Positions 21,403 through 34,720 of a DNA stretch of 38,579 nucleotides are shown piece by piece (within the stretch, counting starts at the first letter, position 1; each line of letters opens with the position of its first letter). The notes beneath the pieces were generated by a model. The model saw only the letters and a list, made by a program, of their open reading frames with translations. It searched no databases and had not been told where the DNA came from. A program made the position numbers and the translations under genes. The DNA comes from Oscillospiraceae bacterium (GTDB taxonomy: Bacteria; Bacillota; Clostridia; Oscillospirales; Acutalibacteraceae): positions 1-38,579 of the forward strand of contig CACZGD010000007.1 in the NCBI GenBank assembly GCA_902780565.1. The letters are read 5' to 3'.

Positions 21403-21564
21403 TTAACGGAACAGGTTTTTGAAGAAGTACGCAATATGATGGAAGAACTTGATGAGCCCGGCAAAAGGACCGGTATGGTATTTGCCGCAAACGCAGTTGG
21501 ATTCTTCCTTCCCGCCCAGCTTCGCGCCGCAGGCGTCGCAGGCGCCGTCGCCGTTACCGTCGTG
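21403..21564 (-). other. Shared C-terminal tail module, copy in the LRR protein
   Basis: The last 53 residues: HDGNGDGACDACG, a short linker (AKLGGKEESN), CVCGKYH, TGPFAGL, then an aromatic hydrophobic helix with FFHHIAYFFKNLF. It matches the end of the subtilase at 29534-29749 in order and spacing of knuckle, linker, knuckle, helix and terminal NLF. The role in retention or sorting is inferred. Confidence 0.6.
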
Positions 21565-24500
21565 ATGCGCGAGCTTCTGGATCTTCAGGGTCTCAACGTG
21601 GCGGCTGTCGTTTCCGCACACACGCTGCTGCAGGCCCTCTTGCGTGCAGGTCGGTTCTTTCACGACGGTCCAGCTTCCGTAACGGTGGCCGGTCGCTTTG
21701 ATGCTCTCGGTCCTTCCGCCGCCGCAAACCGCGCAGGTATAGCGTTTGACGCCTGCCGCCGTACACGTGGGCGAGCTTTCCACAACGCCCTGATCCCACT
21801 GATGCGCCGCCGTTTCAACGTGCGAAGGATCGTTGGCGCACACACGCCGGTGGGTGGTCCCGTCCAGCGCCGTCCAGTCGCCGTAACGGTGACCTGTCGG
21901 GGCGATGGACGAGGAAGCGGTCAGGACCGCGTTGCAGACGCGGCAGCGGATCTCTACGGTGTTGCCCGCAGCGGTACAGGTCGCCGCCTTCGCTTCCCTG
22001 CTTGTATAAGGCGTATGGTCCACAATGGGCAGGCTTTCTTCCTTTCTGTCGCCGCAGACGCAGACTCCGGTCTTCAGACCTGTCTTTGTGCAGGTGGGTT
22101 CCTGCGTCACGGTCCAGGTGTATTCGTGAATGCAGGCCACGGTGATCTTTTCGCTGATCAGCTCGCCGGCATAGCTGCCGGTCGCCGTGATCTTCACAAA
22201 GATTTGGGCGCCGACGTCGGCGGGAGTCAGGGTATAGGTTTCCTGCGTGGCGTCCGCGATCGGTTCGTCATTGCGATACCACCGGAAGATAACCTGCGCG
22301 TCGGAGACCGGCGCAAACACCGCGCGGACCGTATTGCCGCGTTCGGGCGCGCCCTCGATCGTAACAGTCCCCTCCAGCGGAAGCGCTTCGGTCCGAACGG
22401 TGAGCGGCGTGCTTTCCCCGCCCGCCGTATGGGAGGGCGTTTCGGCCTTGCGCACCACGAAAACGTATTCCGTGTTCGGGATCAGATCCGTGAACACCGG
22501 CGAATCGCTCCATGCGCCGTCCGCGCATTTATACTGGTAGCCGTCAAACGCCGTAAGCTCAACGGTGCGGCTGCCGACGGTTTTTGCAACAGGCGCAAGG
22601 ACCGTTGCGCCGGGCGCCTTCACAGGCACAACGGCCTGCGCCGTAAGCGCGCCGGTATTGGAATTGATTCCCTGCAGGACGGCGGAGATCTGTCTGCCGA
22701 CGTCCTCTGCCGTCAGTGTATACTGTTCGGTCCGCGCCACGCACACGCCGTCGCGCAGCCACTGCGTTTCATATTCCGCGTCTTCGGTCGTGACCGCGTC
22801 CGTATTGACCGTGAGCGTTTCCCCATACACGGCGCTGCCGACGATGGAGATCTCGCCCTGCAGCATAACGGGAGTCGTATCCGTAACGGTCAGCAAAAGG
22901 AGCTGCACGTTTTCGTTTTCTTCGCCCTCGTTGAACACGCATTCAAGCGTATGCGAGCCGGGCGAAAGCGTGGACAGGTAGGCGGCGGACAGCGTGAGAA
23001 CGCTGTCGCTGTATGTGTAATCGCTTTCGGAAAGACCGCGCACACGGCTGAAGGTGTTTGCGTTCTCACGGATCTCCACCGAGACGTCCTGCACGGCTGC
23101 AAGGTCCGTTACGGCTGCGTCCGGCGTCAGGACCGGCGCGACACACACAAGCTCCTCGTCATAGAACAGCTCCGTTTCCTCAAAATTGAGGATCGCAAGC
23201 GTCATGGCGTCGTTGCCCGCATTCGCGTCCTCGCCGTCGGTCTCTACCCATGCCGTGATCTGACCGTTGAGCGACTCATCTGTAAAGACAGAATCGGACA
23301 GCTCCAGCGTGTAGGTGGCCGTTTCGCCGGGGGCAATGCTTTCAAGCTCGATCTCGGCGTAGATTTCGGTTTCCGCCTCGGGATCCTGTTTGCCGAGCGC
23401 GGTTTTCAGCATACCAGGCGCGGAGGGCAGGGTCCCCTCGTTCGTCACGTTGATGATCAGGCTGTTATCCGCGCCGACGGAAAACTGCTGCGCTTCCACG
23501 TGCAGATCCGCCTGCCAGAACCGGAACGGGAACGCTTCACTCGCGCCGCTGTCTTCTGCTGCCACGGTGACGGTATAATCCGCGTCGAGCGCTTCATCCG
23601 GCGCGGTCAGCAGAACGGCAAGCTCGCTGCTTTCGCCTGCCCCGATCGAAACGGCTCTGGTTTCCTGCAGCAGCACGCCGCCGTTGGGATCCAGAACGGT
23701 AATCACGGCGTTTTCGACGTCCGCGAAACCGTTATTGCGCACGGTGAGCGTAAGCGCGCGCTGCGCCCCGGGCACGGAACCGGTTTCCGTTTCCACGTTC
23801 GTCACGGTCAGAGCCGCGGCGGGATGATTCTGCGTCACGCAAAGGCGGGCTGTCGTTTCATAGCTGTCCTCGCCGAAGGTGACCTCGTTTTCGCGGTACG
23901 CAAGCATCCATTTGCCGTTTGCGAACACCGCGCCGTAAGCGCCGACGTAATGCTCGGAATCGGTCAAAGCGATCGGCTGCGTCCATCTCGCGCCGTCATA
24001 ATAAAGCGCATAGACGTTGCTGCTTTCTTCCTCCGAGGAAGTATAGGTGATCGCGTAACGGCCGTCTTTGCAGTCGACCCAGCGGAAATTGCAGTCGACT
24101 GCCGTTTCGCCGAGGTCGATCGTCTGCGCCTCGCCCTCGGGATCGGTCAGATAGCGGATCTGCCCGTTTTCATACCACATGAGGACGTTTGCGCCCTTGA
24201 AGGTCGTAAATTGCAGGTTGCCCTTTATGCCGGGCTCCCCGACCTCGCGGCTTTCGCCCGTTTCGGAGAAGAGGACCAGCGTTCTGTCGGTTTCGGTAAC
24301 AGGGTCGCCGTCCGCGTCCATCACGGCAGCCGTAACAGCCGCGCCGTTCCATGCGCCGACTGCCAGATCCGGGATCAGATTGACCCCTCGGACATAGGTC
24401 ACGGGCTCGCTCCAGACGCCGTTTTCAAGCTTTGACATCCGGATCCGGTTGCTGCCGTCCGCGCCAAAGATCTCGCCGTTTTCATTCGACGCCCAAACGG

Positions 24501-26274
24501 CGACGGGCGTGCCGTTGACAATGGCAAGATCTGCGACCAGATCGTAGGTATCGTCCGCCGTCACCGCGCCGAGAGAAATAAACGACTTGGAGGCGGGATC
24601 ATATTTCGCGGCGTAAACGTCCATTGCGGAAACGAACTGCGCAGGCGTCGCCCCGGCAGGAAGCTGCTTGTTCGCGGCGGTGTAAACGACGTAGATATCG
24701 CTGCCGTCGCTGAAAGCCCGATAGTAGTTATCCATTGTGCCGCTGTCGGCGATCAGCGCGGGCGCGGTCCACGTGCCGGCGCTCTCGTCATACACGGAGT
24801 ACACCAGCCCCTGCAGGTTCTCGGCGGTGCGCCCGGCGATATCGTCCGCATACACCATCATCGTAACGCCGTTGCAGCGCACGAGCTGCGGCTCCAGATA
24901 GCTATACGCGTTCGTCTGCAGCACGCTTGCCTGTGTTGCCGGCACGGCATTCACAGAAGCCGGCGCGGCGTTCACAGCGGCAGGAGCGGCGGGGCTGCCG
25001 AGCCAGGCGGAACGCACCGCGAGATAGTCCCGCTCGATCGGCGCATATGCGCTGATATCATAAAGATCTTCCCGCCGGAAGGAATCGCTTGTCCTTGAGG
25101 CGCTGCGCTTACGCGGCAGTAACTGCGTCTTTTTCCAATTGGCGAATTCCTTTCTGTATTCCCAACAACCGGCCCTTCCGTAACCGCCGACGCTGCCGCT
25201 GCCGTAAAGCTTGCTCGGGATCTTCCACTCGAGGGTAAATCCGCCGTACACACCGGCAGAAGCCCATTTATTCCCAATGCCGAGGGACGCCTCCCCCTTC
25301 ACTTTCAGGGTTGTGTCAAAGTTGCATGAGAGCCGGAATTTCTGTCCGTCGAAAGTCGCGGGATTGGAAAAGCGCAGCAGCAGCTCGCCGGAAAGTCCGA
25401 TATCCATCGTCAAGGGCAAAATGTAAAGCCAGACGTCAACGGAATGCTCCACGCTGACCTTCACGAACAGATACGCCGAGCTCTTCGGGAAATAGAAGGT
25501 CTTTCGTTCGGCGTTATACGCGACCTCCAGGCTGGCGACCAACCCGCCTGAGACGCTGAGACCGCGCTCTACTCTGCCGTATTTGTTTTTTACCTCTTTG
25601 ATGAGGTCCTTATCCCATTTCGGCTGGGGGGTATTGATCCCAAGCTCGAAGGTATCCGGATTGTTTTTATAGCTGAAACTCATACCGCTGAGCTTCGTCC
25701 ATTTTTGAAGAGGAATCGTCAGCTTGATGCCGCTGAGGATATCCTCGCCGGTAGCGGAGAGATCAATCTGAGGATCGCTTTGTTTGTCATTGTTTGGTTC
25801 GTCCTTGCTTTTCTTAAAGCCGATATCCAGATCAAGCATCACGGGGTCGAACACGCCGATCTTCAGCGTTTTCTGCAGCGTTTTGCCGTCGCGCGTCTGC
25901 ATACGTACGACAACGGGCGCATCCTTCTTAAACGACTTGTGATAGACCGTGAAGATATGCGTGCCCGCGTTGACGTTGGTCTTTTTCGCAATCACGGTAT
26001 TGCCGCTCAGCAGCTCCAGGGATTTGATCCGGAAGGGCGAAGAGACGTTTACCTCGAAATCGCTGGAGCCGGAATACGCACGGTTGAGACTCGAATAGCC
26101 GTTCAGCACGTTCGTCCCGTTGAACTTGACCGAGCTGATCGAATGGACAGCCCCGAGGCTGAACACGGCGGTGGATTCTTTTTTATTCAGCCGATAGGCG
26201 CCGTAGCTGACGGTTGCGTAATTCCCGGCTTGGACGGTGACGCTTGCCGTGCTGCCGGTCGGCATCTGGAACAC
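21403..26274 (-). CDS. C-terminal part of a giant secreted LRR surface protein (split by frameshift)
   Basis: This frame is open from the homopolymer at 26507-26513 to the stop at 21403. The GTG at 26274 is only the first possible start and has no good ribosome site, so I regard it as the continuation of the gene at 26444-28384, not a gene of its own. Residues counted from 26274: a short carboxypeptidase-regulatory-like beta unit spans the start; a structural region to about 430; repeated strands like a beta-propeller or sialidase-type fold (about 455-815); two CARDB-like domains (about 820-1010); Ig- and Fn3-like domains (about 1135-1380); and Cys-rich repeats of the form HRYGxW...PTCTxxG...C (1385-1580). 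The end is the HD...CxxCG / CxCGxxH tail with a hydrophobic helix and NLF. No LPXTG, SLH or choline-binding motif is seen. Confidence 0.75.
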   Translation of the reverse strand: MFQMPTGSTASVTVQAGNYATVSYGAYRLNKKESTAVFSLGAVHSISSVKFNGTNVLNGYSSLNRAYSGSSDFEVNVSSPFRIKSLELLSGNTVIAKKTNVNAGTHIFTVYHKSFKKDAPVVVRMQTRDGKTLQKTLKIGVFDPVMLDLDIGFKKSKDEPNNDKQSDPQIDLSATGEDILSGIKLTIPLQKWTKLSGMSFSYKNNPDTFELGINTPQPKWDKDLIKEVKNKYGRVERGLSVSGGLVASLEVAYNAERKTFYFPKSSAYLFVKVSVEHSVDVWLYILPLTMDIGLSGELLLRFSNPATFDGQKFRLSCNFDTTLKVKGEASLGIGNKWASAGVYGGFTLEWKIPSKLYGSGSVGGYGRAGCWEYRKEFANWKKTQLLPRKRSASRTSDSFRREDLYDISAYAPIERDYLAVRSAWLGSPAAPAAVNAAPASVNAVPATQASVLQTNAYSYLEPQLVRCNGVTMMVYADDIAGRTAENLQGLVYSVYDESAGTWTAPALIADSGTMDNYYRAFSDGSDIYVVYTAANKQLPAGATPAQFVSAMDVYAAKYDPASKSFISLGAVTADDTYDLVADLAIVNGTPVAVWASNENGEIFGADGSNRIRMSKLENGVWSEPVTYVRGVNLIPDLAVGAWNGAAVTAAVMDADGDPVTETDRTLVLFSETGESREVGEPGIKGNLQFTTFKGANVLMWYENGQIRYLTDPEGEAQTIDLGETAVDCNFRWVDCKDGRYAITYTSSEEESSNVYALYYDGARWTQPIALTDSEHYVGAYGAVFANGKWMLAYRENEVTFGEDSYETTARLCVTQNHPAAALTVTNVETETGSVPGAQRALTLTVRNNGFADVENAVITVLDPNGGVLLQETRAVSIGAGESSELAVLLTAPDEALDADYTVTVAAEDSGASEAFPFRFWQADLHVEAQQFSVGADNSLIINVTNEGTLPSAPGMLKTALGKQDPEAETEIYAEIELESIAPGETATYTLELSDSVFTDESLNGQITAWVETDGEDANAGNDAMTLAILNFEETELFYDEELVCVAPVLTPDAAVTDLAAVQDVSVEIRENANTFSRVRGLSESDYTYSDSVLTLSAAYLSTLSPGSHTLECVFNEGEENENVQLLLLTVTDTTPVMLQGEISIVGSAVYGETLTVNTDAVTTEDAEYETQWLRDGVCVARTEQYTLTAEDVGRQISAVLQGINSNTGALTAQAVVPVKAPGATVLAPVAKTVGSRTVELTAFDGYQYKCADGAWSDSPVFTDLIPNTEYVFVVRKAETPSHTAGGESTPLTVRTEALPLEGTVTIEGAPERGNTVRAVFAPVSDAQVIFRWYRNDEPIADATQETYTLTPADVGAQIFVKITATGSYAGELISEKITVACIHEYTWTVTQEPTCTKTGLKTGVCVCGDRKEESLPIVDHTPYTSREAKAATCTAAGNTVEIRCRVCNAVLTASSSIAPTGHRYGDWTALDGTTHRRVCANDPSHVETAAHQWDQGVVESSPTCTAAGVKRYTCAVCGGGRTESIKATGHRYGSWTVVKEPTCTQEGLQQRVCGNDSRHVETLKIQKLAHHDGNGDGACDACGAKLGGKEESNCVCGKYHTGPFAGLIKFFHHIAYFFKNLFR

Positions 26275-26443
26275 GGCGGTGCCGTAGCTGTCCGTGGTTT
26301 TACGGGAGCCGTTGACCGTGACCGCAGCGCCCTTCAGCGCGTCGCCGTAAGTATTTGTGACCTTAATGATCCAGGGACGGACCAGACCGCTCCCCGCCCG
26401 TGCGATCAGGTTGACGGAATAGGCAAAGAAGCCGTTCCATTTT

Positions 26444-28384
26444 TCATTGCTGACCTGTCTGTTCCACTGCGCGTTGTTGGACCGGTACTGAATGAAGAAA
26501 TGATCGCCCCCCCGGGAAAACGGAGGACCCGATGCCTGCCGGCGGATCCGCCTTGAAGTCGGCGCAGGAAAGATTGGAGCACTGCGCGAAGGCGGTGTTG
26601 CCGATCCGGTTCGGTGTACCGTTGAAAACAGCCGTTTGAATGCCGGTGCAGCCCTTGAAGGCGTTCACGCCGATCGTTTTGACGGACGCGGGGATCGTGA
26701 CCCCGACGAAGGAACGGCAGTTTTCAAACGCCGAATCGCCGATGGTCACAAGCGTTCCGGGCAGGGACACGCCGCCGAGCGACGTGCAGCCATTAAACGC
26801 GTTCGCGGGGATCTCGGTCAGTTTGCTGAGATGATCGAAGGACTTGAGCGACGTGCAGTTCATGAACGCGCCGCTGCCGAGCTGCTTCAGCGTGCCCTCC
26901 AGACGGATCTCCTGCAGCGCCGTGCAGCCCTTGCAGGCGTTTGCGGGAATGGCGCCGATCGCCTTCGTCAGCGTAAGGGACTTCAGAGTCGTATTGCCGG
27001 AAAACGCATCGGCAGTAAAAGCCGTGACGTTATAGGAGACGCTGTCCTTCACGATCCGTCGGGGCATGATTGCGGTCGAGCCGCCGCGATAGCCGACGAC
27101 AGATGCCGTGAAGGCAGCCGCGTCGTACGCATACACAAAACCGAGCTCGTCCGTGTCGTTTTCATCCACGTTGCTGTAAAGCTGTCCGGGCGGATCGTAG
27201 CCCTCCAGCGGAAAGCCTGCCCAGGAAGCCTGATAAGCAAGCCAGTCGTCCTTGAACTGAAGAAAATACACGAAAATACAGTCAAGCGCGGTATCGGCAA
27301 ACGGCGCCGCCCCCACCGTGATCGGCTTTTTATGACGGAAATACACGCCGCCCAGATTGTCGCAGCCCGAAAACGCGCCGTCGCCGATCCATGCCACAGA
27401 TTCGGGGAAGGTGATCTCCTCGAGCCCATCGCAGTTCCGGAAGCTGTTTGCGCCGATCTTCACAAGCCCGTCGTGCAGCACGACGCGTTCGATCCCGGCG
27501 CAGTTTTCAAACGCGGATTCACAGATCTCCGTCACGCTTTCCGGAATCCTGAATTCGCGGCACCGAAGCGCGGTCGGGACCTTATAGATTTTGGAATAGT
27601 CCTCGCTGTACTCCACGCCGTATTCGTCGATATTCACGACCCGGGAAAGGACCTCGACCGTGTCGCTCGGCTCCACCGGCGTGCGGTCCCATGCGGACCA
27701 GGGGGACCACTGATAGAAATGATAGAGCAGATCGGCGTCCATATAGCGGTACATCGTGTAACCGGGCGTCGCCTCGACCGTCTTGGTCGGGTTCGCACCG
27801 GTGTAATCCGTGCCGACGTACCATTTCGTACAGCCGTTCGGGCAGCCCTTATCGGAGAGATAATAGCCGCCGGAGCCATAGGTATTCTCTTTGTAATTCG
27901 TCAGCTTGTTGTCGAACGTTGTGGTGTGGTAGATGGTCGCAGACTCATACACACAGTTGCCCCAGTACGTACCGGCGGAATTGCAATAATGGAAATACTG
28001 GTACACCGTTTTGTAGGTGGGCTGGATATACTTTGTCTCGACCTTCCGGTAGTCGGTAGCCGTCACCGCGGCGCGCTGCCACTCCGACCAGTCCGACCAG
28101 CCGGTGATCTCCGTCTCATACAGCGTCCAGCCCTCCAGTTGAGGGCTGAGATCCGTTGTGACGGATTTCGTCCGATACTGATACTTCGTCACGGTCTCGA
28201 CCGTGTTCACTTCGCTGTAAACGTCGGTTTCGGTTTTGTAGGGACCGAACGCGTCGGCGATCAGCTCGGCGACCTGCGAGGGAAGGCAGGTCCAAAGCAT
28301 CAGCGCCGCCAGACACACCGCAAACACTTTTGCGGCATAACGCCTGACGGACCGAGGATGTTCGTTTTGTCGTCCTCTTGTCAT
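26444..28384 (-). CDS. N-terminal part of BspA-like leucine-rich-repeat surface protein (frameshifted)
   Basis: 646 residues as read, of which about 624 are authentic. A basic N-terminus and hydrophobic segment (about residues 18-40) form a secretion signal or anchor. A Tyr/Trp-rich region with WSDWSEW and WSPWSAW motifs follows (about 60-245). Then two blocks of LRR_5 (BspA-type) repeats run at about 265-365 and 455-612, with units such as LPGTLVTIGDSAFENCRSF. After VFPGG the frame shifts and the tail (RSFLHSVPVQQ...) is nonsense. Removing one G from the seven-G run gives VFPGGDHFFIQYRS, continuous with the downstream frame, for a total of about 2326 residues. BspA-type LRR proteins mediate adhesion in other species. 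The ATG at 28384 has AGGAGG 6 bases upstream. Candidate LytTR sites lie upstream. Confidence 0.85.
   Translation of the reverse strand: MTRGRQNEHPRSVRRYAAKVFAVCLAALMLWTCLPSQVAELIADAFGPYKTETDVYSEVNTVETVTKYQYRTKSVTTDLSPQLEGWTLYETEITGWSDWSEWQRAAVTATDYRKVETKYIQPTYKTVYQYFHYCNSAGTYWGNCVYESATIYHTTTFDNKLTNYKENTYGSGGYYLSDKGCPNGCTKWYVGTDYTGANPTKTVEATPGYTMYRYMDADLLYHFYQWSPWSAWDRTPVEPSDTVEVLSRVVNIDEYGVEYSEDYSKIYKVPTALRCREFRIPESVTEICESAFENCAGIERVVLHDGLVKIGANSFRNCDGLEEITFPESVAWIGDGAFSGCDNLGGVYFRHKKPITVGAAPFADTALDCIFVYFLQFKDDWLAYQASWAGFPLEGYDPPGQLYSNVDENDTDELGFVYAYDAAAFTASVVGYRGGSTAIMPRRIVKDSVSYNVTAFTADAFSGNTTLKSLTLTKAIGAIPANACKGCTALQEIRLEGTLKQLGSGAFMNCTSLKSFDHLSKLTEIPANAFNGCTSLGGVSLPGTLVTIGDSAFENCRSFVGVTIPASVKTIGVNAFKGCTGIQTAVFNGTPNRIGNTAFAQCSNLSCADFKADPPAGIGSSVFPGGRSFLHSVPVQQRAVEQTGQQ
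26507..26513 (-). other. Seven-base homopolymer at the frameshift
   Basis: Seven C on the plus strand (seven G on the coding strand), preceded on the coding strand by TTTTCCC. Six or nine G would join the two frames into one open frame without a stop. It could be a phase-variation tract, a true mutation, or a base-calling or assembly error; the sequence alone cannot separate these. Confidence 0.8.
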
Positions 28385-28415
28385 ACGTTACCTCCTGCGT
28401 ATCTTTGGATTCAGA

Positions 28416-28434
28416 AAGGAAACAGACTTTCCTT
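28416..28434. repeat. Inverted repeat in the LRR gene leader
   Basis: AAGGAAA-cagac-TTTCCTT, 7-bp arms with a 5-base loop, between the predicted transcription start (about 28442) and the ribosome site. It could form a small hairpin in the leader. Confidence 0.4.
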
Positions 28435-28448
28435 CTTATTTTTTACTT

Positions 28449-28512
28449 ATCATAAACGCACGGAAAAATCAAGCCGCCGCCGGGTGAACGCCCTTTGAAA
28501 ACCGTGTGAACG
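28449..28512 (-). promoter_or_regulatory. Candidate LytTR-activated promoter of the LRR surface gene
   Basis: On the minus strand TATGAT (28449-28454, five of six matches) has no good -35. Upstream lie two CGTTCAC heptamers in direct orientation (28484-28490 and 28506-28512), 22 bases apart, which is two helical turns. From a start near 28442 they sit at about -42 and -64. LytTR regulators are known to bind GTT-containing 9-mers repeated at about 21-22 bases upstream of weak promoters. A third CGTTCAC on the plus strand is at 28563-28569. Binding is inferred. Confidence 0.5.
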
Positions 28513-28612
28513 AAACCTGACGCTTGACGGGCATTCTCCCTTTTTCGCCGAAACAAAGGTGCCGTTCACATCGATTTCGGCGCTCATTCAGACAAATTCC
28601 GAAAGACAAAGC

Positions 28613-28641
28613 TTGCAAATCCGGGGCGGATTCGATATACT
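28613..28641 (+). promoter_or_regulatory. Promoter of the LytTR regulator gene without adjacent kinase
   Basis: TTGCAA (28613-28618), 17-base spacer, TATACT (28636-28641), about 30 bases upstream of the start codon. A CGTTCAC copy lies 44 bases upstream of the -35, so autoregulation is possible. Confidence 0.7.
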
Positions 28642-28674
28642 GATAGCATCCTATTTCAGAATCCGGTGAAGAAA

Positions 28675-29394
28675 ATGCGTTTTGCAATCGTTGAAGACAA
28701 TCCCGATCAGGCCGCCGCCCTGAAAGACCAAATGCTTGCCCTGCTGGCAGGCCGCGCCGTTGTGTCGGCGTGCGACCTGTTTTCGTCCTGCAGCGCCTGT
28801 CTGCAAAGCAAACAGCCCTATGATCTTTATATCATTGACTGTCTTTTGCCGGACGGCAACGGGGTGGAGCTCGCAAAATCACTGCGGGAAACGCATCCGG
28901 ATGCCGAGATTATTTTTACAACCGCACATCTGGAATACGCCGCGAACGGTTATGAAACAGACGCGCTGCGATATCTGCTCAAACCCGTAAAAGACGACAA
29001 GCTGCTGGAGGCGTTGAATTATTTCCTGCGTCGGCGCAGCCTGGACCCCGTGATCGAGCTGACCGGGACAACCCGTTTCCCGGATTTTGTGAAAGCCTCC
29101 CGGATCCTCTATATCGAATACGCGGACAGTCGCGTGCTTGTCCGTCTTGCTTCCCGCACGGTGGAGACGCAGAAATACATCCGGGATTTTGAAAAGGAGC
29201 TTCCGGACGACTGTTTTTTCAGAACGTCGCGGTCCTTTCTCGTCAACCTGCGGCACATTTCGGAAAAGCAGGGGAACACGCTGATCATCAGCAACGGCGA
29301 ACGCGTTACGCTCAGCAAGCGCAGACTGTCGGCGTTCAATCAGGCGTATCTGCAATTCCTGAAGCAAAAAACCGCGCGCGGCACGACCGCGTAA
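28675..29394 (+). CDS. Orphan LytTR-family response regulator
   Basis: 239 residues from the ATG at 28675 (a GTG at 28666 would add three). The receiver domain starts MRFAIVEDNPDQAAAL and has the phospho-acceptor Asp55 in LYIIDCLLPDGNGVEL and the conserved Lys in LRYLLKPV. The LytTR domain (about 130-230) contains FFRTSRSFLVNLRHI and ISNGERVTLSKRRLSAF. No histidine kinase is adjacent; the other kinase in the window, at 9999-11345, has its own partner. It lies between two giant secreted proteins, divergent from the LRR gene and convergent with the subtilase. Candidate LytTR sites lie in the shared 281-base gap. I infer that it controls at least the LRR gene. Confidence 0.92.
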   Translation: MRFAIVEDNPDQAAALKDQMLALLAGRAVVSACDLFSSCSACLQSKQPYDLYIIDCLLPDGNGVELAKSLRETHPDAEIIFTTAHLEYAANGYETDALRYLLKPVKDDKLLEALNYFLRRRSLDPVIELTGTTRFPDFVKASRILYIEYADSRVLVRLASRTVETQKYIRDFEKELPDDCFFRTSRSFLVNLRHISEKQGNTLIISNGERVTLSKRRLSAFNQAYLQFLKQKTARGTTA

Positions 29395-29489
29395 CCCGTG
29401 GGATACAGCCTGCGGAACGGAGCTTTGCCCCGTTCCCCCTCAGCTTGCCTGCAGCAGCCGCCAACATCCGACGCGCAATACCAAACGTC

Positions 29490-29519
29490 AAAAAAAGCGC
29501 CCCGGCGAGGGGCGCTTTT
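29490..29519 (-). terminator. Bidirectional terminator between the LytTR regulator and the subtilase gene
   Basis: Perfect 11-bp stem AAAAGCGCCCC / GGGGCGCTTTT (29493-29503, 29509-29519) with loop GGCGA. On the minus strand it ends in seven T, 14 bases after the subtilase stop. On the plus strand four T are followed by GTGTT. Confidence 0.88.
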
Positions 29520-29533
29520 GTGTTGCACGTGGC

Positions 29534-29749
29534 TCAGTTGCCGCCGAACAGGTTGGTGAGGAAGCGGACGATGAGCAGGATGGAATGGACGAGGCGGGTC
29601 CAGCTTCCGGAGAGGGTCCTTTCGTGGACCTCGCCGCAGTATTTGCAGACCGCGCCGCCGGAGGGATTCGCGCCGGGCTCGTCGGGATTGTCGGACGGGG
29701 TCTTCCCGTCGCCGCAGCGGCGGCAGACGCCGTTTTCGTCCCGGTCATG
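29534..29749 (-). other. Shared C-terminal tail module, copy in the subtilase
   Basis: The last 71 residues: HDRDENGVCRRCG, a Pro/Gly/Asp-rich linker (about 20 residues), CKYCGEVH, RTLSGSWTRL, then VHSILLIVRFLTNLFGGN. It has the same arrangement as at 21403-21564, with a longer linker. The helix is more hydrophobic here. Confidence 0.6.
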
Positions 29750-32700
29750 CCCGAGGGCCGCGACCGGCAGGGACTTTTCATCCCGATAGGTCTCGCCGTC
29801 CGGTCCGGTCGAAACGGCGGTGAACAGGAGCTGCCCCGCTTCGGTACAGGTGGGGGCGGTCTCCGTGCGCGTCACGGCGGCGGTCAAGGTCAGGGTGTGC
29901 GACGCGTCGTGGGCGCAGGTGAGCGTGACCGAGGCGGCGGCATTGTCCGCGCTCCAGCTCCATTCGGCTTCATAAGCATGGCCGGTGGCGGGCAGCACGG
30001 TGACGCGCGCGTCGGTATAGGTCTCGCCGTCCGGTCCCGTCGCGGTCGCGGTCTCGGTTCTGAGTCCGTCCGCCTCGCAGGTCGCGGCGGTCTCCTCGGC
30101 GGTCACGGCAGCGGGGACGCGGGTCTCGGCGTCATTGTTATGGTGATCGACGAACACGGCCTCGGCGCCGGTCTCGGTCCAGACAAAGCCGGTCATCTCC
30201 CATGCGGGGTCGAGCTGCGGCAAGACCTCGGTCTGCTCGTCCGTGTAGGTCGCGCCGTCCGGTCCCGTGACGGTCGCTGTGTAGACGACCTGCCCGGGAG
30301 CGACAGAGGTGGCGGGCGTGGTGACGGCGGTCACGGTGGCGGGCAGCACGGTCTCGGCGTCATTGTTATTGTGATCGACGAAGGCGGCAGAGGCGGTGCG
30401 AGCATCCGTCCACGTAAATCCGACCAGCGCCCAATCGGGGGCAAGGCGCGGGATCGCGACGCGCTTTTCGTCCGTGTAGGTCCTGCCGTCCGGTCCCGTC
30501 GCGGTCGCGGTATAGCGGGTCTCGCCTTCGGACGCGGAGGTGGCGGGGGTCTCGGTCACGGTCACGGCGGCGGTCGCCTCGGCAGTGTGGGCGGGATCCC
30601 TGCGGCAGGTAAAGGCGGCGACGGCGGCGGTGTAGCCGGAGGCATCGTCGCCGGTCCAGGTCCAGGAGGGCTGGCCCCAGTCATGCCCCGCGCCGGGGAT
30701 CGTGAGGTCCTCGGTCCCGGTCATGCCGAGGGAGGCGTTCAGCTCGGCGGTCAGCAGCGCGGCGTGTTCATCCAGACAGCCGCCGGTGAAGGTGAGGGTC
30801 ACGAGGGTCTCCCCTGCCGGGACGGCGGGCAGGGCGGTCAGGGCGACGCGCACGCGCCCGGGTTCGGCGTTGATTACGGCGCGGCCCTGCGGCGCGGCGG
30901 AGACGAAGGACACGGCGGCGGGATCGAAGGAAACGTCCAGCAGCGCGTTCTCGGTGGTCTGCCCTGCCGGGATCTCCAGCGTGAGGGTCTCGGCAGCGGG
31001 GGCGGGCGCGGGCGCGGCAGGTTCGCCGTCGTCAGCGGCAAGGGCGGTCACACGCGCGGGGGCTGCGACAGAAGCAGGAGCGACGACCTCGCTATGCACA
31101 GCCTCGCGGTACAGATAGATCGCAGCGGGGTCGGCGCCGAGCGAATAGGCGTTGTTTTCATAACGCAGGAAATATGACGCAGCAGCGGTTTTTCCGGAAA
31201 GAGCGCCGTTTTCGTAGGTCCAGACGAGCGCGTTTTCGGGCGACGAGACGAAGCGGATGCTGCCGTCCGCCGCGTTGACGGACAGGTACTGCCCGCCGTT
31301 TTGCAGGGTCAGATCGTCGTCAAGGGTCCAGACGGCGGTCTCGGGCACCCCGGACGCGAGGATGTACGGCGCGTCGGCGGCGTAAACGTTGACGGAGGCG
31401 CGCCCGGCGGTGCGGTAGCCCAGCGCCAGCGCGTGGGTGGACCCGGCGGCATTCACGGGCGCGATCACGTAGCGCGCGCCGGGAACGAGTTCATTCGTGA
31501 GGGCGAAGACGGCGGTTTCGGCGACCACCTCGCCGGGGGCGAAGCGCACCAGCGCCGCGGTCTCGTTGCCCGCGTAGTCGCCGACGAAGACCGTGACGGC
31601 GTTGGTGAGCCCGTAGGCGGCGGGATCGAAGGTGAAGGTCGCCTCCTCGCCCGGCTCGTTTTCGGGCACGACGGAGAGGAGCGCAGTCTTGCCGTCCACC
31701 GTGAGCAGACGCAGCACGGCGACGTAGGCGTTATCCGTAAAGCGCAGGGTGACGGTGCCGTCCGCGTTCACGGTCGGTTCGCCGAGGGTGGGCGCGGTAT
31801 CGTCCAGCATGACGGTGTAGCCGATCGAAGCGCCCTTGCCGTAACACCCGCTTTCGAGCAGCCGCGTGAAGGTCGCCTTGGTATAGGAGCCGTCGCGGTT
31901 CGTGCCGTTCAGACGGAAGGCGTAATATTCCGGGAAGGCGTAGTAGCCGAAGGTGAAGCGCTGCCCGGCGGACAGCCCGAAGGAGGCGGGCGTGCGGTCC
32001 AGATTCGCCATGGAGACGGCGGTGTTCACCCAGCCGGGGGTGCGCGACTGCGTGTTATAGAACGCGGCGTTCAGGTCCGCGCCGGGCGTCGCGGTATAAA
32101 CGACCTTGCCGGATTCATCCAGCAGGGCGATCGCGCCGCCGGAGGCCGCGCGGATCAGGTTGAAGCGCGCGCCTGCCAGCGCGGTATCCGTGCGCAGGGC
32201 AAGCTTTTCCGCCGGGAAAGAAGCCTCCGCTTCATACGGGTTGCCGGTGAACCACTGCGTTTTGCCCCCGGCGGGCGTGACGCGCCAGCCGTTGGTCTCG
32301 GTCGCGCCGAAATAGGAGGTCTTTTCGCTGCCGTAGATCGCGTCGGTATAGCGGACCGCGTCGAACATGGACGCGTCCGTCCACGAGCCGTAGAAGCCGA
32401 GCACGGGGATGGAATAGGTCACGTCCGCGTCGCTTTCGATAAAGGTGAAGGCCTCAAAGTACGCGCCGCCCGCGCGTTCGGCGTTCAGCGTTTCGCGCTC
32501 GGCGTCCGTCAGGCGGATGGAGACGGTCACGCGCCGGGTCTCCCCGGCGGGGACGGTCCCCGTCGCGGATTCCGCCAGCGCTTCGGTCAGAGCCGCTTCG
32601 AGCAGATACGCGTCGCGCGTGGTGACGCTGCCGTCGCCGTCACGGTCCGCGGCGGCGAGGTCATAATCGCCGGGCAGCCCGGCGGCGTGGGACAGAATCG

Positions 32701-34720
32701 CCTCCACGTCGGACAGGTCGGTCATGCCGTCCCGGTTCACGTCGGCGGCAAGCGCCGGGGCTTCTTCGCCCTCCCACACGGCGGTCACGGTGGCAGAAAG
32801 CGGCGTCACGGTATGCTCCATGCGCGTTTTGTCGGCGGAGAGCGCCTGCGTAAACACGTCCGTGCGCACGGTGTATTCGATCGCGGTATCGGAGAGGTTC
32901 TGCACCGAGAAGGCGTAGGTATACGTGCCGGTGCGGTCCGGGTCGTCGCCGAGCTCCGCCTTGACCTTGCCGTCGGCAGCGGAGCGGGAGGCTTCGCCGT
33001 CCATGCGGATCACGGCGGCGGCGGACACGGCGGCGTCCAGATCCGCAAGCCCCGCGCCCTGCTTGAGCAGGGAGTAGTAATAGCCGGAATCCGCCTCCAC
33101 GATCGGCACGGCGGTGCTCATCAGCGCGCCCTGCGCGTACTGCCGCAGGGTCATGCCCGTTTTTTCACGCACGTCGGCGGCTTCGTAATGCCCCGCCAGC
33201 GCGGCAACAAGGCCGGTGATCTGCGGCGCGGCCATGGAGGTGCCGCTCATATATTCATAGGCCTCGTGCCCGCCCGCGAAGGCGGACAGCACGGTGCGGT
33301 GGTAGCCGTTCAGGGACTTGACGCTGCCGCCGGGGGCGGTGATCTCAGGCTTCAGGACCAGGGCGCCGGGCACGCCCCACGCGGAGAAGCCGGACATGGG
33401 ATAGGTCACGGTGCCCGGCAGGGGCGAGACCGCCCCCGTGAGGCCGCTGTCGTAGACGGAAGCGACCGTAAAGCTGTTGTTGAAGGAGCCGGGCGAGCCG
33501 CCGGTCATCAGGTTCACGTCGTCGGCATAGAGCTGCTTATCATAGTCCCACGACGTATTGTTGCCCATGGAGCAGGACAGGACGAAATCCGTCCCCTCCA
33601 GCGAGTCGAGAACCTTCTGATAGGACGTGGAGACCGTGAAGCCCGCAACGCCGGAGCCGAGCGACAGGTTCGCGGACGCGGCGCCGAGCGCCACGGCGTC
33701 CTCCACCGCGGCGAAGTAGTCCGCATCGTAAGCGCCGCCGCCCACGCCGAAGACCTTCATCACGAAGACCTGCGCGTCGGGCGCCTGCCCGACCACGCCC
33801 ACGGTATCGGCTGCGGAGACGAAGCCGCCGTCCTTCGGCAGATAGCGGTTCGCGGCGGCGATGCCCGCCACGTGGGAGCCGTGCTCGCCCTCATAGTCGC
33901 CGGGGGCGGTGTGGGTCACGTCGGTATTGTTGTCCACATAGTTATAGGCAAAGGGGATCTTGGCGCTCAGATACACGCCGTTTTTCGCGTTCAGACCGGC
34001 CTTCAGCAGCTCCACCTGCCGTTCGGTGAGCAGCTCCACGGGGGTCCCGTTCGCGAGATCCTCGTCGATCGCGTGCAGGAAGGCGGCTTCGTCAAAGGAC
34101 TGATGCTCGATATCGAGGCCGGTATCGATCACGGCGAGCTTCGCCCCGGCGCCGGTGTAGGCGGAGGCGTGCGGGCCGTTCGCGCCCACCATATCGCGCG
34201 CGTCGGTCATATCGGGCGCGGCGGGTTCGGTTTCGTCCGGGCGGTACTGCGTTTCCAGCTCCACGCTTTTCACGCCCGGCAGGGAGCGGATCGCGTCCAG
34301 ATCGCCGTAGGGCACGACCATGGACACGGCGTTGACGAGCAGCGTCAGGTTCCAGCGCACGTCCGGCGTGTGACCGGTGACGGCGGCGATTCTGGAGGTA
34401 AGGTCCGCCTGCGTCTTCTGCAGGGACTGCCGGTAGGTGAGCGCCGCGGCGTTCACGCCGACGCCGTCAAGGGCAAAGCCCCTGTCGCGCGCGGCGGGCG
34501 CGGTGAGAAAGACGGAAACGCGCACCCGCTCGTTCGGGTCGCGTGCGGGAACGGGGGCGTCCGAAAGCGACTCCTGCCCGAGGCGGGCGACGGACAGCGA
34601 CGCCGGATCGACCGGGGTGAGAGAGACGGCGGGTCCCGCGGCAAACGCCGGGGTCAAGAGGGAGACCGTCAGCAAAAGCGAGAGCAGCAGGGATAACAGG
34701 ATCTTGCGCAGCTTGTTCAT
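29534..34720 (-). CDS. Giant secreted subtilisin-family (S8) protease with dockerin-like insert and tandem repeats
   Basis: 1728 residues. Signal peptide ending TPAFA at about residue 27; an I9-type propeptide (about 66-160); an S8 domain with Asp199 (AVIDTGLD), His280 (GEHGSHVAGI), oxyanion Asn387 and Ser495 (GTSMAAP). All catalytic residues are intact. Then comes an Fn3-like region of the C5a-peptidase kind (about 596-800) interrupted by a dockerin-like pair of EF-hand loops (659-711: DVNRDGMTDLSDVEAIL and DRDGDGSVTTRDAYLLEAAL). Further beta domains follow, then an Ala/Pro-rich segment and a cohesin-like or BIG-type stretch. Four repeats of about 77 residues (about 1343-1655) end in TGPDGxTYTDE. 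The shared knuckle-and-helix tail closes the protein. The ATG at 34720 has AAAGGAG 7 bases upstream. It probably cleaves host or dietary proteins at the cell surface. No LPXTG is present. Confidence 0.9.
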   Translation of the reverse strand: MNKLRKILLSLLLSLLLTVSLLTPAFAAGPAVSLTPVDPASLSVARLGQESLSDAPVPARDPNERVRVSVFLTAPAARDRGFALDGVGVNAAALTYRQSLQKTQADLTSRIAAVTGHTPDVRWNLTLLVNAVSMVVPYGDLDAIRSLPGVKSVELETQYRPDETEPAAPDMTDARDMVGANGPHASAYTGAGAKLAVIDTGLDIEHQSFDEAAFLHAIDEDLANGTPVELLTERQVELLKAGLNAKNGVYLSAKIPFAYNYVDNNTDVTHTAPGDYEGEHGSHVAGIAAANRYLPKDGGFVSAADTVGVVGQAPDAQVFVMKVFGVGGGAYDADYFAAVEDAVALGAASANLSLGSGVAGFTVSTSYQKVLDSLEGTDFVLSCSMGNNTSWDYDKQLYADDVNLMTGGSPGSFNNSFTVASVYDSGLTGAVSPLPGTVTYPMSGFSAWGVPGALVLKPEITAPGGSVKSLNGYHRTVLSAFAGGHEAYEYMSGTSMAAPQITGLVAALAGHYEAADVREKTGMTLRQYAQGALMSTAVPIVEADSGYYYSLLKQGAGLADLDAAVSAAAVIRMDGEASRSAADGKVKAELGDDPDRTGTYTYAFSVQNLSDTAIEYTVRTDVFTQALSADKTRMEHTVTPLSATVTAVWEGEEAPALAADVNRDGMTDLSDVEAILSHAAGLPGDYDLAAADRDGDGSVTTRDAYLLEAALTEALAESATGTVPAGETRRVTVSIRLTDAERETLNAERAGGAYFEAFTFIESDADVTYSIPVLGFYGSWTDASMFDAVRYTDAIYGSEKTSYFGATETNGWRVTPAGGKTQWFTGNPYEAEASFPAEKLALRTDTALAGARFNLIRAASGGAIALLDESGKVVYTATPGADLNAAFYNTQSRTPGWVNTAVSMANLDRTPASFGLSAGQRFTFGYYAFPEYYAFRLNGTNRDGSYTKATFTRLLESGCYGKGASIGYTVMLDDTAPTLGEPTVNADGTVTLRFTDNAYVAVLRLLTVDGKTALLSVVPENEPGEEATFTFDPAAYGLTNAVTVFVGDYAGNETAALVRFAPGEVVAETAVFALTNELVPGARYVIAPVNAAGSTHALALGYRTAGRASVNVYAADAPYILASGVPETAVWTLDDDLTLQNGGQYLSVNAADGSIRFVSSPENALVWTYENGALSGKTAAASYFLRYENNAYSLGADPAAIYLYREAVHSEVVAPASVAAPARVTALAADDGEPAAPAPAPAAETLTLEIPAGQTTENALLDVSFDPAAVSFVSAAPQGRAVINAEPGRVRVALTALPAVPAGETLVTLTFTGGCLDEHAALLTAELNASLGMTGTEDLTIPGAGHDWGQPSWTWTGDDASGYTAAVAAFTCRRDPAHTAEATAAVTVTETPATSASEGETRYTATATGPDGRTYTDEKRVAIPRLAPDWALVGFTWTDARTASAAFVDHNNNDAETVLPATVTAVTTPATSVAPGQVVYTATVTGPDGATYTDEQTEVLPQLDPAWEMTGFVWTETGAEAVFVDHHNNDAETRVPAAVTAEETAATCEADGLRTETATATGPDGETYTDARVTVLPATGHAYEAEWSWSADNAAASVTLTCAHDASHTLTLTAAVTRTETAPTCTEAGQLLFTAVSTGPDGETYRDEKSLPVAALGHDRDENGVCRRCGDGKTPSDNPDEPGANPSGGAVCKYCGEVHERTLSGSWTRLVHSILLIVRFLTNLFGGN
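29760..30695 (-). repeat. Four tandem protein-coding repeats of about 231 bases
   Basis: Each unit encodes about 77 residues with a W at the start, a central TAAVT or PATVTA stretch, and a TGPDGxTYTDE end. The DNA word gccgtccggtcc recurs at a spacing of about 230-231 bases (near 29795, 30025, 30256 and 30486), so copies are related at DNA level and could recombine. Units 1 and 4 carry a Cys/His pattern (FTCRRDPAHT, LTCAHDASHT); units 2 and 3 have FVDHNNNDAET instead. Confidence 0.7.

Follow-up and report, generated by a model that had tools for sequence, protein, structure and literature searches.

A portable knuckle-and-helix tail on unrelated exported proteins of an Oscillospiraceae bacterium and its relatives: a putative metal-pinned membrane anchor

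Why should two giant proteins that are otherwise unrelated end in the same short tail, and what might such a tail do? The question is raised by a stretch of 38,579 nt (here called the window) from an Oscillospiraceae bacterium (GCA_902780565.1, contig CACZGD010000007.1, positions 1-38,579, forward strand). A frame with its stop side at 21403 (-) has the C-terminal end HDGNGDGACDACG-linker-CVCGKYH-helix-NLFR, and a subtilase with its stop side at 29534 (-) ends as HDRDENGVCRRCG-linker-CKYCGEVH-helix-NLFGGN. Retention at the cell surface is the most likely role of the tail, and we lean, with moderate confidence, towards a zinc-stapled anchor lying in the plane of the membrane, like that of PBP5, as opposed to a cleaved sorting signal. 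The features of the window on which the analysis turns are as follows.

21406..21495, minus strand: type-A module, a CVCGKYH knuckle and amphipathic helix (GPFAGLIKFFHHIAYFFKNLFR) at the extreme C-terminus (profile, AF2 model)
21496..21564, minus strand: upstream HDxxxxGxCxxCG knuckle and linker, outside the general module (sequence)
21403..26274, minus strand: ORF with the type-A tail and CBM_X2, NPCBM_assoc and CARDB domains (Pfam scan)
26444..28384, minus strand: BspA-type LRR ORF (Pfam) with a signal-peptide-like N-terminus (by reading)
26507..26513, minus strand: G7 run within the overlap of the two LRR frames (sequence)
29537..29647, minus strand: type-B module of the subtilase, with CKYCGEVH knuckle, ERTLSGSW spacer, helix with His and NLFGGN end
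29648..29749, minus strand: upstream HDxxxxGxCxxCG knuckle of the subtilase and a Pro/Gly/Ser/Asp linker (sequence)
29534..34720, minus strand: secreted subtilase of 1728 aa, with signal peptide (by reading), Peptidase_S8, dockerin and type-B tail
32588..32746, minus strand: Dockerin_1, residues 659-711 of the subtilase, between its catalytic and C-terminal regions (Pfam)

The shared tail of the two window proteins

A first-pass annotation of this DNA had assigned one of the tails to an LRR protein. The tail is present at 21403 (-), but as assembled this protein consists of two ORFs in different frames, which overlap at 26444-26664 (-). No signal peptide was seen in the frame 21403..26274 (-), and the LRR ORF at 26444..28384 is probably the N-terminal half of the same gene. 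The G7 run at 26507-26513 is a possible frameshift site, whether through assembly error, decay or slippage. The annotation had further stated that neither protein has LPXTG or another known anchor. Neither has an LPXTG-like motif in its last 120 residues, but the subtilase contains a type I Dockerin_1 domain (27.6 bits against a cut-off of 22.9 in the Pfam scan), which may on its sequence be another attachment domain besides the tail.

That the two proteins share a knuckle, a helix and an NLF ending was confirmed with profiles from which their own tails had been left out. Such a type-A profile scores the LRR tail and the subtilase tail at 34.9 and 23.3 bits, ranking them first and second among the 701 ORFs of the window; the next window ORF reaches 5.1 bits and the highest score among 14,020 shuffled ORFs is 8.6, so that chance similarity was ruled out. 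The two tails fall into different subtypes, the LRR tail into type A and the subtilase tail into type B, and a type-B profile built without the subtilase scores it at 29.6 bits. With the LRR tail as sole query 23 places were found in its own genome, itself included (E 1e-17 to 0.63), and the subtilase tail was not among them. A mobile DNA repeat as the source of the likeness is unsupported, an exact 15-mer being shared by 20 of the 210 own-genome pairs of tails; codons differ at the conserved residues.

The HDxxxxGxCxxCG knuckle, originally taken as part of the module, does not belong to it. Among 151 C-terminal knuckle matches, of which about 11 are probably chance frames, 35 have a knuckle of this kind no more than 60 residues upstream, which rules out a definition by two knuckles. 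The module is instead C-x2-C-G-x2-H, followed by a Phe-rich amphipathic helix that carries the His of a fourth ligand. In agreement with the earlier view that the tail could not be assigned to a named family, none in Pfam, NCBIfam or the PDB covers it. Zinc families gave weak matches only, each in one of 22 rows (best E 0.078), and PDB matches to a segment of influenza M2 (E 0.1 and worse) were taken as chance from the hydrophobic helix. No description of the tail was found in the titles and abstract openings of open-licence PMC articles.

Cargo, placement and distribution

A Pfam scan was carried out on 33 ORFs, the three of the window and 30 others, one of which (L043) lacks the knuckle and has just the helix. 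The cargo domains include Peptidase_S8, papain-like C1, C39, M6, Metallophos, LRR_5, Lectin_C, beta-helix, DUF6273 and Cthe_2159; ten of the 30 non-window ORFs have no Pfam family at E ≤ 0.001, and SLH repeats occur in none of the 33. The same module is thus found on subtilases, C1 and M6 peptidases, metallophosphatases and LRR, lectin and beta-helix proteins, as the proposal of a tail common to otherwise unrelated exported proteins had it. The question of export itself was addressed with a home-made rule, applied to tail ORFs with an upstream stop and, as controls, to the other ORFs of loci L146-L204. A signal-peptide-like start was seen in 47 of 54 tail ORFs, as against 44 of 175 controls. 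Several of the seven tail ORFs that lack one resemble fragments.

The module sits almost always at the end of the protein, with 119 of 123 closed knuckle modules ending 13 residues or fewer from the stop. The other four end 23, 53, 293 and 293 residues from it. The two at 293 are metallophosphatases of 390 residues (L013/L024 and L172), in which the module follows directly after the signal peptide; they are 72% identical and all four ligands are kept in the N-terminal module. Two further loci (L168, L189) resemble these enzymes but run off their contigs. The expectation that the module is always C-terminal therefore holds for the great majority and fails for this metallophosphatase family. Some tails end about 20 residues after the knuckle (L186, L187, L190, L195, L197, L200 and others; for example HGGAFGWLVKFFHSIFAIFKR), and these could possibly represent the minimal functional form.

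The host genome (3.29 Mb in 240 contigs, 97% complete) contains about 35 tail matches when type A, type B and weaker copies are taken together. The type-A profile A2 has 23 matches at E < 1e-10, the subtilase included, and 22 of these are themselves rows of the profile, C171 being the one that is not. Ten further matches are of type B, with the form CPYCGxxHDxxTxSGWWTELxHH; nine are rows of profile A4 and were first found by A2 at E 2e-6 to 0.003. Of the type-B matches, three (C33, C82 and C54) lie in frames of fewer than 100 residues and C82 lacks the first Cys. The two weaker copies are C125 and the N-terminal C133.

All 26 genomes of the genus (G000, G391-G415) have at least one A2 match at E ≤ 0.001. 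They divide into 16 with at least eight tails and 10 with one to three matches, mostly weak and often helix-only. Among these ten, G407 has a single match (E 1e-11) and the other nine have one to three weak ones. The best match of four of these nine (G391, G393, G394, G398) is a helix-only C-terminal tail. In three (G392, G395, G400) it is an N-terminal helix, while G403 has a Cys-variant tail and G405 a helix that lacks the usual knuckle. In the family 12 of 150 genomes match, six of them at E < 1e-9, and in the class at least two of 391, one weakly, with the best 20 candidates scored per genome. A profile search of Clostridia, which had been suggested at the outset, finds the tail on dozens of relatives' proteins: at least 59 loci come from records titled Clostridia, Clostridiales, Ruminococcaceae, Clostridiaceae or Oscillospiraceae, and among the matches listed 17 of 59 are from records naming rumen or omasum. 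These loci overlap in part with the genus and family genome sets (CAMOVW, for example, is G412) and are not independent samples; identical tail stretches were counted once, and alignment A5 omits 14 of 52 of the tails from this set. Plasmids, phages and viral contigs gave no match to one 32-residue tail or to alignment A3, and an origin of the tail in such elements was rejected on that result.

The many-to-one pattern within one genome and the strong division of one genus into tail-rich and tail-poor members would both be expected of a tripartite sorting signal, processed by a membrane enzyme devoted to it, which cleaves the signal and passes the protein on to the wall or to a lipid. The order of the parts also fits, with a motif, a hydrophobic helix and often basic last residues, and a conserved Cys is a feature of MYXO-CTERM. 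According to PMC11980579, MYXO-CTERM has an invariant Cys in a short motif followed by a hydrophobic C-terminal helix, occurs dozens of times per genome, and has a transmembrane helix with an Arg cluster that is cleaved by a CPBP protease. The present tail differs from it in its amphipathic helix, its CCHH motif and its N-terminal copies, and these conserved copies are not explained by a C-terminal signal that is cleaved off. Against such a signal are also the helix, which is short and amphipathic with a polar face running through its middle, and the tails that stop about 20 residues past the knuckle.

The enzymes tell against it as well. Co-occurrence with one membrane enzyme family had been anticipated for a sorting signal, and of the four families sought in the 26 genus genomes sortase, exosortase and rhomboid do not follow the number of tails, nor was a clear link seen for CPBP. 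Sortase is present in all 26, tail-rich or tail-poor, with one in the tail-rich G402 (25 matches) and three each in the tail-poor G391, G393, G394 and G395. Exosortase was found in 0 of 26. Rhomboid occurs in five (four tail-rich, one tail-poor) and was not found in the tail-rich G396, G397, G402 and G404, which are 74-97% complete. CPBP occurs in 24, in one copy in 16, and the two genomes without it are tail-rich and 58% complete. While the tail resembles LPXTG/sortase substrates in being C-terminal, Gram-positive and found on many cargoes, an LPXTG-like [LIN]PxT[GASN] motif is present in the last 120 residues of just 13 of 127 knuckle rows, many of which read IPATG as in Cys-rich repeats, and strict LPxTG in one (L079). 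It likewise shares a many-to-one C-terminal module with the GlyGly-CTERM/rhombosortase system (PMC3237569, PMC6219818). That system has a Gly/Ser motif and a rhomboid enzyme, the latter here confined to the five genomes mentioned. Altogether we regard a cleaved sorting signal as unlikely, though an enzyme from a family beyond these four might act on the tail.

The putative metal site and the helix

The ligand columns were examined in 148 distinct stretches, 127 with the knuckle and 21 without. The first position is Cys in 125 of the 127 knuckle rows (the exceptions are L072 and L133), position 4 is Cys in 121 and Asp in six, and position 8 is His in all 127. The helix His, present in 122 of the 148 stretches, covaries with the knuckle: both are found in 121, the knuckle alone in six, the His alone in one (L110) and neither in 20, the corresponding numbers for 84 clusters being 71, 6, 1 and 6. 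Two of the six knuckle-only rows are of type B (the subtilase and L128) and have the His in a shifted register, L089, L107 and L124 have a Cys three residues earlier, one turn up on the same helix face, and L072 is a weak match in a 66-residue frame. Since sets found by profile are biased towards the His, a profile-independent regular expression was also used. It gave 151 knuckle matches near the C-terminal end, 136 with a His at +11 to +14; the remaining 15 are four Cys variants (from three loci) and 11 that look like chance frames.

In the CxWD subgroup (L198, L178, L021, L061, L202 and L191) the second Cys is replaced by Asp. The exchanges of Cys for Asp and of His for Cys, as read from the sequences, are compatible with zinc ligands but not with a disulfide. 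The four ligands are also kept in all 10 aligned rows of type B, at a spacing similar to that of type A; the type-B-like L133, without the first Cys, was left out of this alignment (A4). The four CCHH ligands are therefore conserved together in columns, in co-occurrence and in the regular-expression counts, and the early suggestion that the tail is perhaps metal-binding is borne out to the extent that it has the pattern of a metal site. It resembles zinc ribbons and zinc knuckles in its CxxCG-type ligand pairs and differs from them in placing the fourth ligand in an amphipathic helix of membrane type.

The helix has a mean moment of 0.51 and a mean hydrophobicity of 0.48 (on an approximate scale), with a sharp periodicity peak at 100 degrees. 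Of 57 gap-free representatives 98% are more amphipathic than their shuffles at p < 0.05, and the two window helices are so at p 0.0002 and 0.010, in each case for the best-scoring of several windows of 18 residues. After the knuckle 22.5% of the residues are Phe, and 109 of 127 knuckle rows carry a net positive charge. An AlphaFold (AF2) model of the LRR tail (40 residues, 40 alignment rows) has a single helix of 17 residues (22-38) at a mean pLDDT of 77; Foldseek found no match to it in the PDB.

An ordinary single-pass transmembrane anchor, in which the Cys/His motif would be decorative, could account for a hydrophobic stretch of about 20 residues near the C-terminal end that often finishes in Arg or Lys. 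The transmembrane insertion cost, however, is unfavourable, with a mean of +4.3 (5-95%: +2.0 to +6.4) by a crude score. Polar residues recur every 3-4 positions, the polar face passes through the middle of the helix, and the shortest tails are too short to span a membrane. We therefore consider a transmembrane anchor very improbable; the helix looks surface-seeking.

A C-terminal amphipathic membrane anchor is known from E. coli PBP5 (DacA). There, according to PMC2909392, the last 18 residues form a membrane-binding amphipathic helix by which the exported enzyme is tethered to the inner membrane on its outer face, and removal of the anchor leaves the enzyme soluble and misplaced. The tail described here is similarly an amphipathic helix at the extreme C-terminus of exported proteins (98% of 57, 119/123 and 47/54 for the three properties, respectively). 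Whereas the PBP5 anchor belongs to one enzyme family, the tail is portable and is found on dozens of unrelated giant proteins. We know of no metal knuckle in the PBP5 anchor.

Metallophosphatase relatives and the proposed anchor

A comparison of protein relatives with and without the tail was possible for one metallophosphatase, of another family than the one with the N-terminal module. The search, with up to the best six candidates per genome, gave at least 134 matches in 59 of 300 family genomes; 70 of these matches were compared together with three from the set of at least 59 Clostridia loci, making 73 loci. A C-terminal extension is present in 12; in four of them it comprises knuckle and helix, in eight only the helix. 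All 12 have an N-terminal hydrophobic export-like segment that by eye is a plain signal peptide. Another 35 have an N-terminal hydrophobic segment and no C-terminal tail, and 26 have neither. The C-terminal tail counted against AxA gives 10, 2, 1 and 60, with a Fisher p of 1e-9 by raw count; on the tree, however, the C-terminal tail has a single origin, and its association with a cleavable signal peptide therefore amounts to one event. An exchange of C-terminal tail and N-terminal anchor in these enzymes, as a single event, is thus suggestive. The knuckle and helix-only states need three changes each (one forced by well supported branches), which makes the helix the constant element, to which the knuckle is an addition. 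The esterases did not provide a second case of exchange: the C-terminal tail is in 0 of the 30 loci compared (30 of 76 matches), and 26 of the 30 have an N-terminal hydrophobic segment by eye.

N-terminal helices of a related appearance were seen in several of these proteins. Alpha/beta-hydrolase-like proteins of related genomes (L308-L337, L134 and L141, named by reading) often start with a helix like M-x-x-KIIAFFMSIIAFFxxLFG, and metallophosphatases such as L090, L092 and L108 have a similar one. Both are like the C-terminal helix but have no knuckle, and they may act in export, in anchoring or in both. A large enzyme-like protein, L095, has an N-terminal helix of the esterase type. The esterase-like L314, by contrast, begins in the manner of a lipoprotein, with LALIFTISCANTG, and such a start would likewise place the protein on the membrane.

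Our proposal is as follows. After Sec export the C-x2-C-(G)-x2-H knuckle and the His on the polar face of the helix would bind one metal ion, most likely Zn2+, through C-C-H-H ligands or their C-D-H-H and C-C-H-C variants. The metal site would pin the start of a Phe-rich, cationic amphipathic helix of 17-22 residues, which would lie in the outer leaflet of the cytoplasmic membrane and keep the protein, uncleaved, on the cell surface in the manner of PBP5. We infer the identity of the metal as zinc, the binding to membrane and the lack of cleavage. Against the anchor may be set L110, which has the His without the knuckle, the type-B-like L133, which lacks the first Cys, the 35 metallophosphatase relatives in which an N-terminal hydrophobic segment is accompanied by no C-terminal tail, the scarcity of tails in 10 of the 26 genus genomes and the seven tail ORFs that lack a signal-peptide-like start.

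Amphipathic helices are also able to bind to proteins, and the zinc-pinned helix might bind a partner in the wall or surface layer, or self-assemble, in place of binding lipid. The type-A helix is very constant (FFH-x-I-x-YFF), perhaps more so than lipid binding alone would require, and type B combines a different helix with a similar ligand spacing. As the helix is Phe-rich and net positive, and its sequence is loose in the helix-only relatives, we find docking on protein doubtful. It is similarly not very probable that retention by the anchor is gated by metal, in which case zinc at the knuckle would control the exposure of the helix to the membrane, and dozens of exported enzymes and adhesins would be held or released in concert by the metal of the gut. 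A stronger form of such gating would bring in further machinery, able to recognise the module whether it stands at the N- or the C-terminus.

Many uncultured gut Clostridia have giant exported proteins in which no anchor is recognised. The recurrent tail makes part of their surface proteome predictable and provides a rule for annotation, namely a knuckle followed by an amphipathic helix near the C-terminal end. If the anchor works alone it would be a compact display tag for which sortase is not needed, and for these organisms the tail gives a concrete hypothesis, that surface proteins may be retained under the control of metal.
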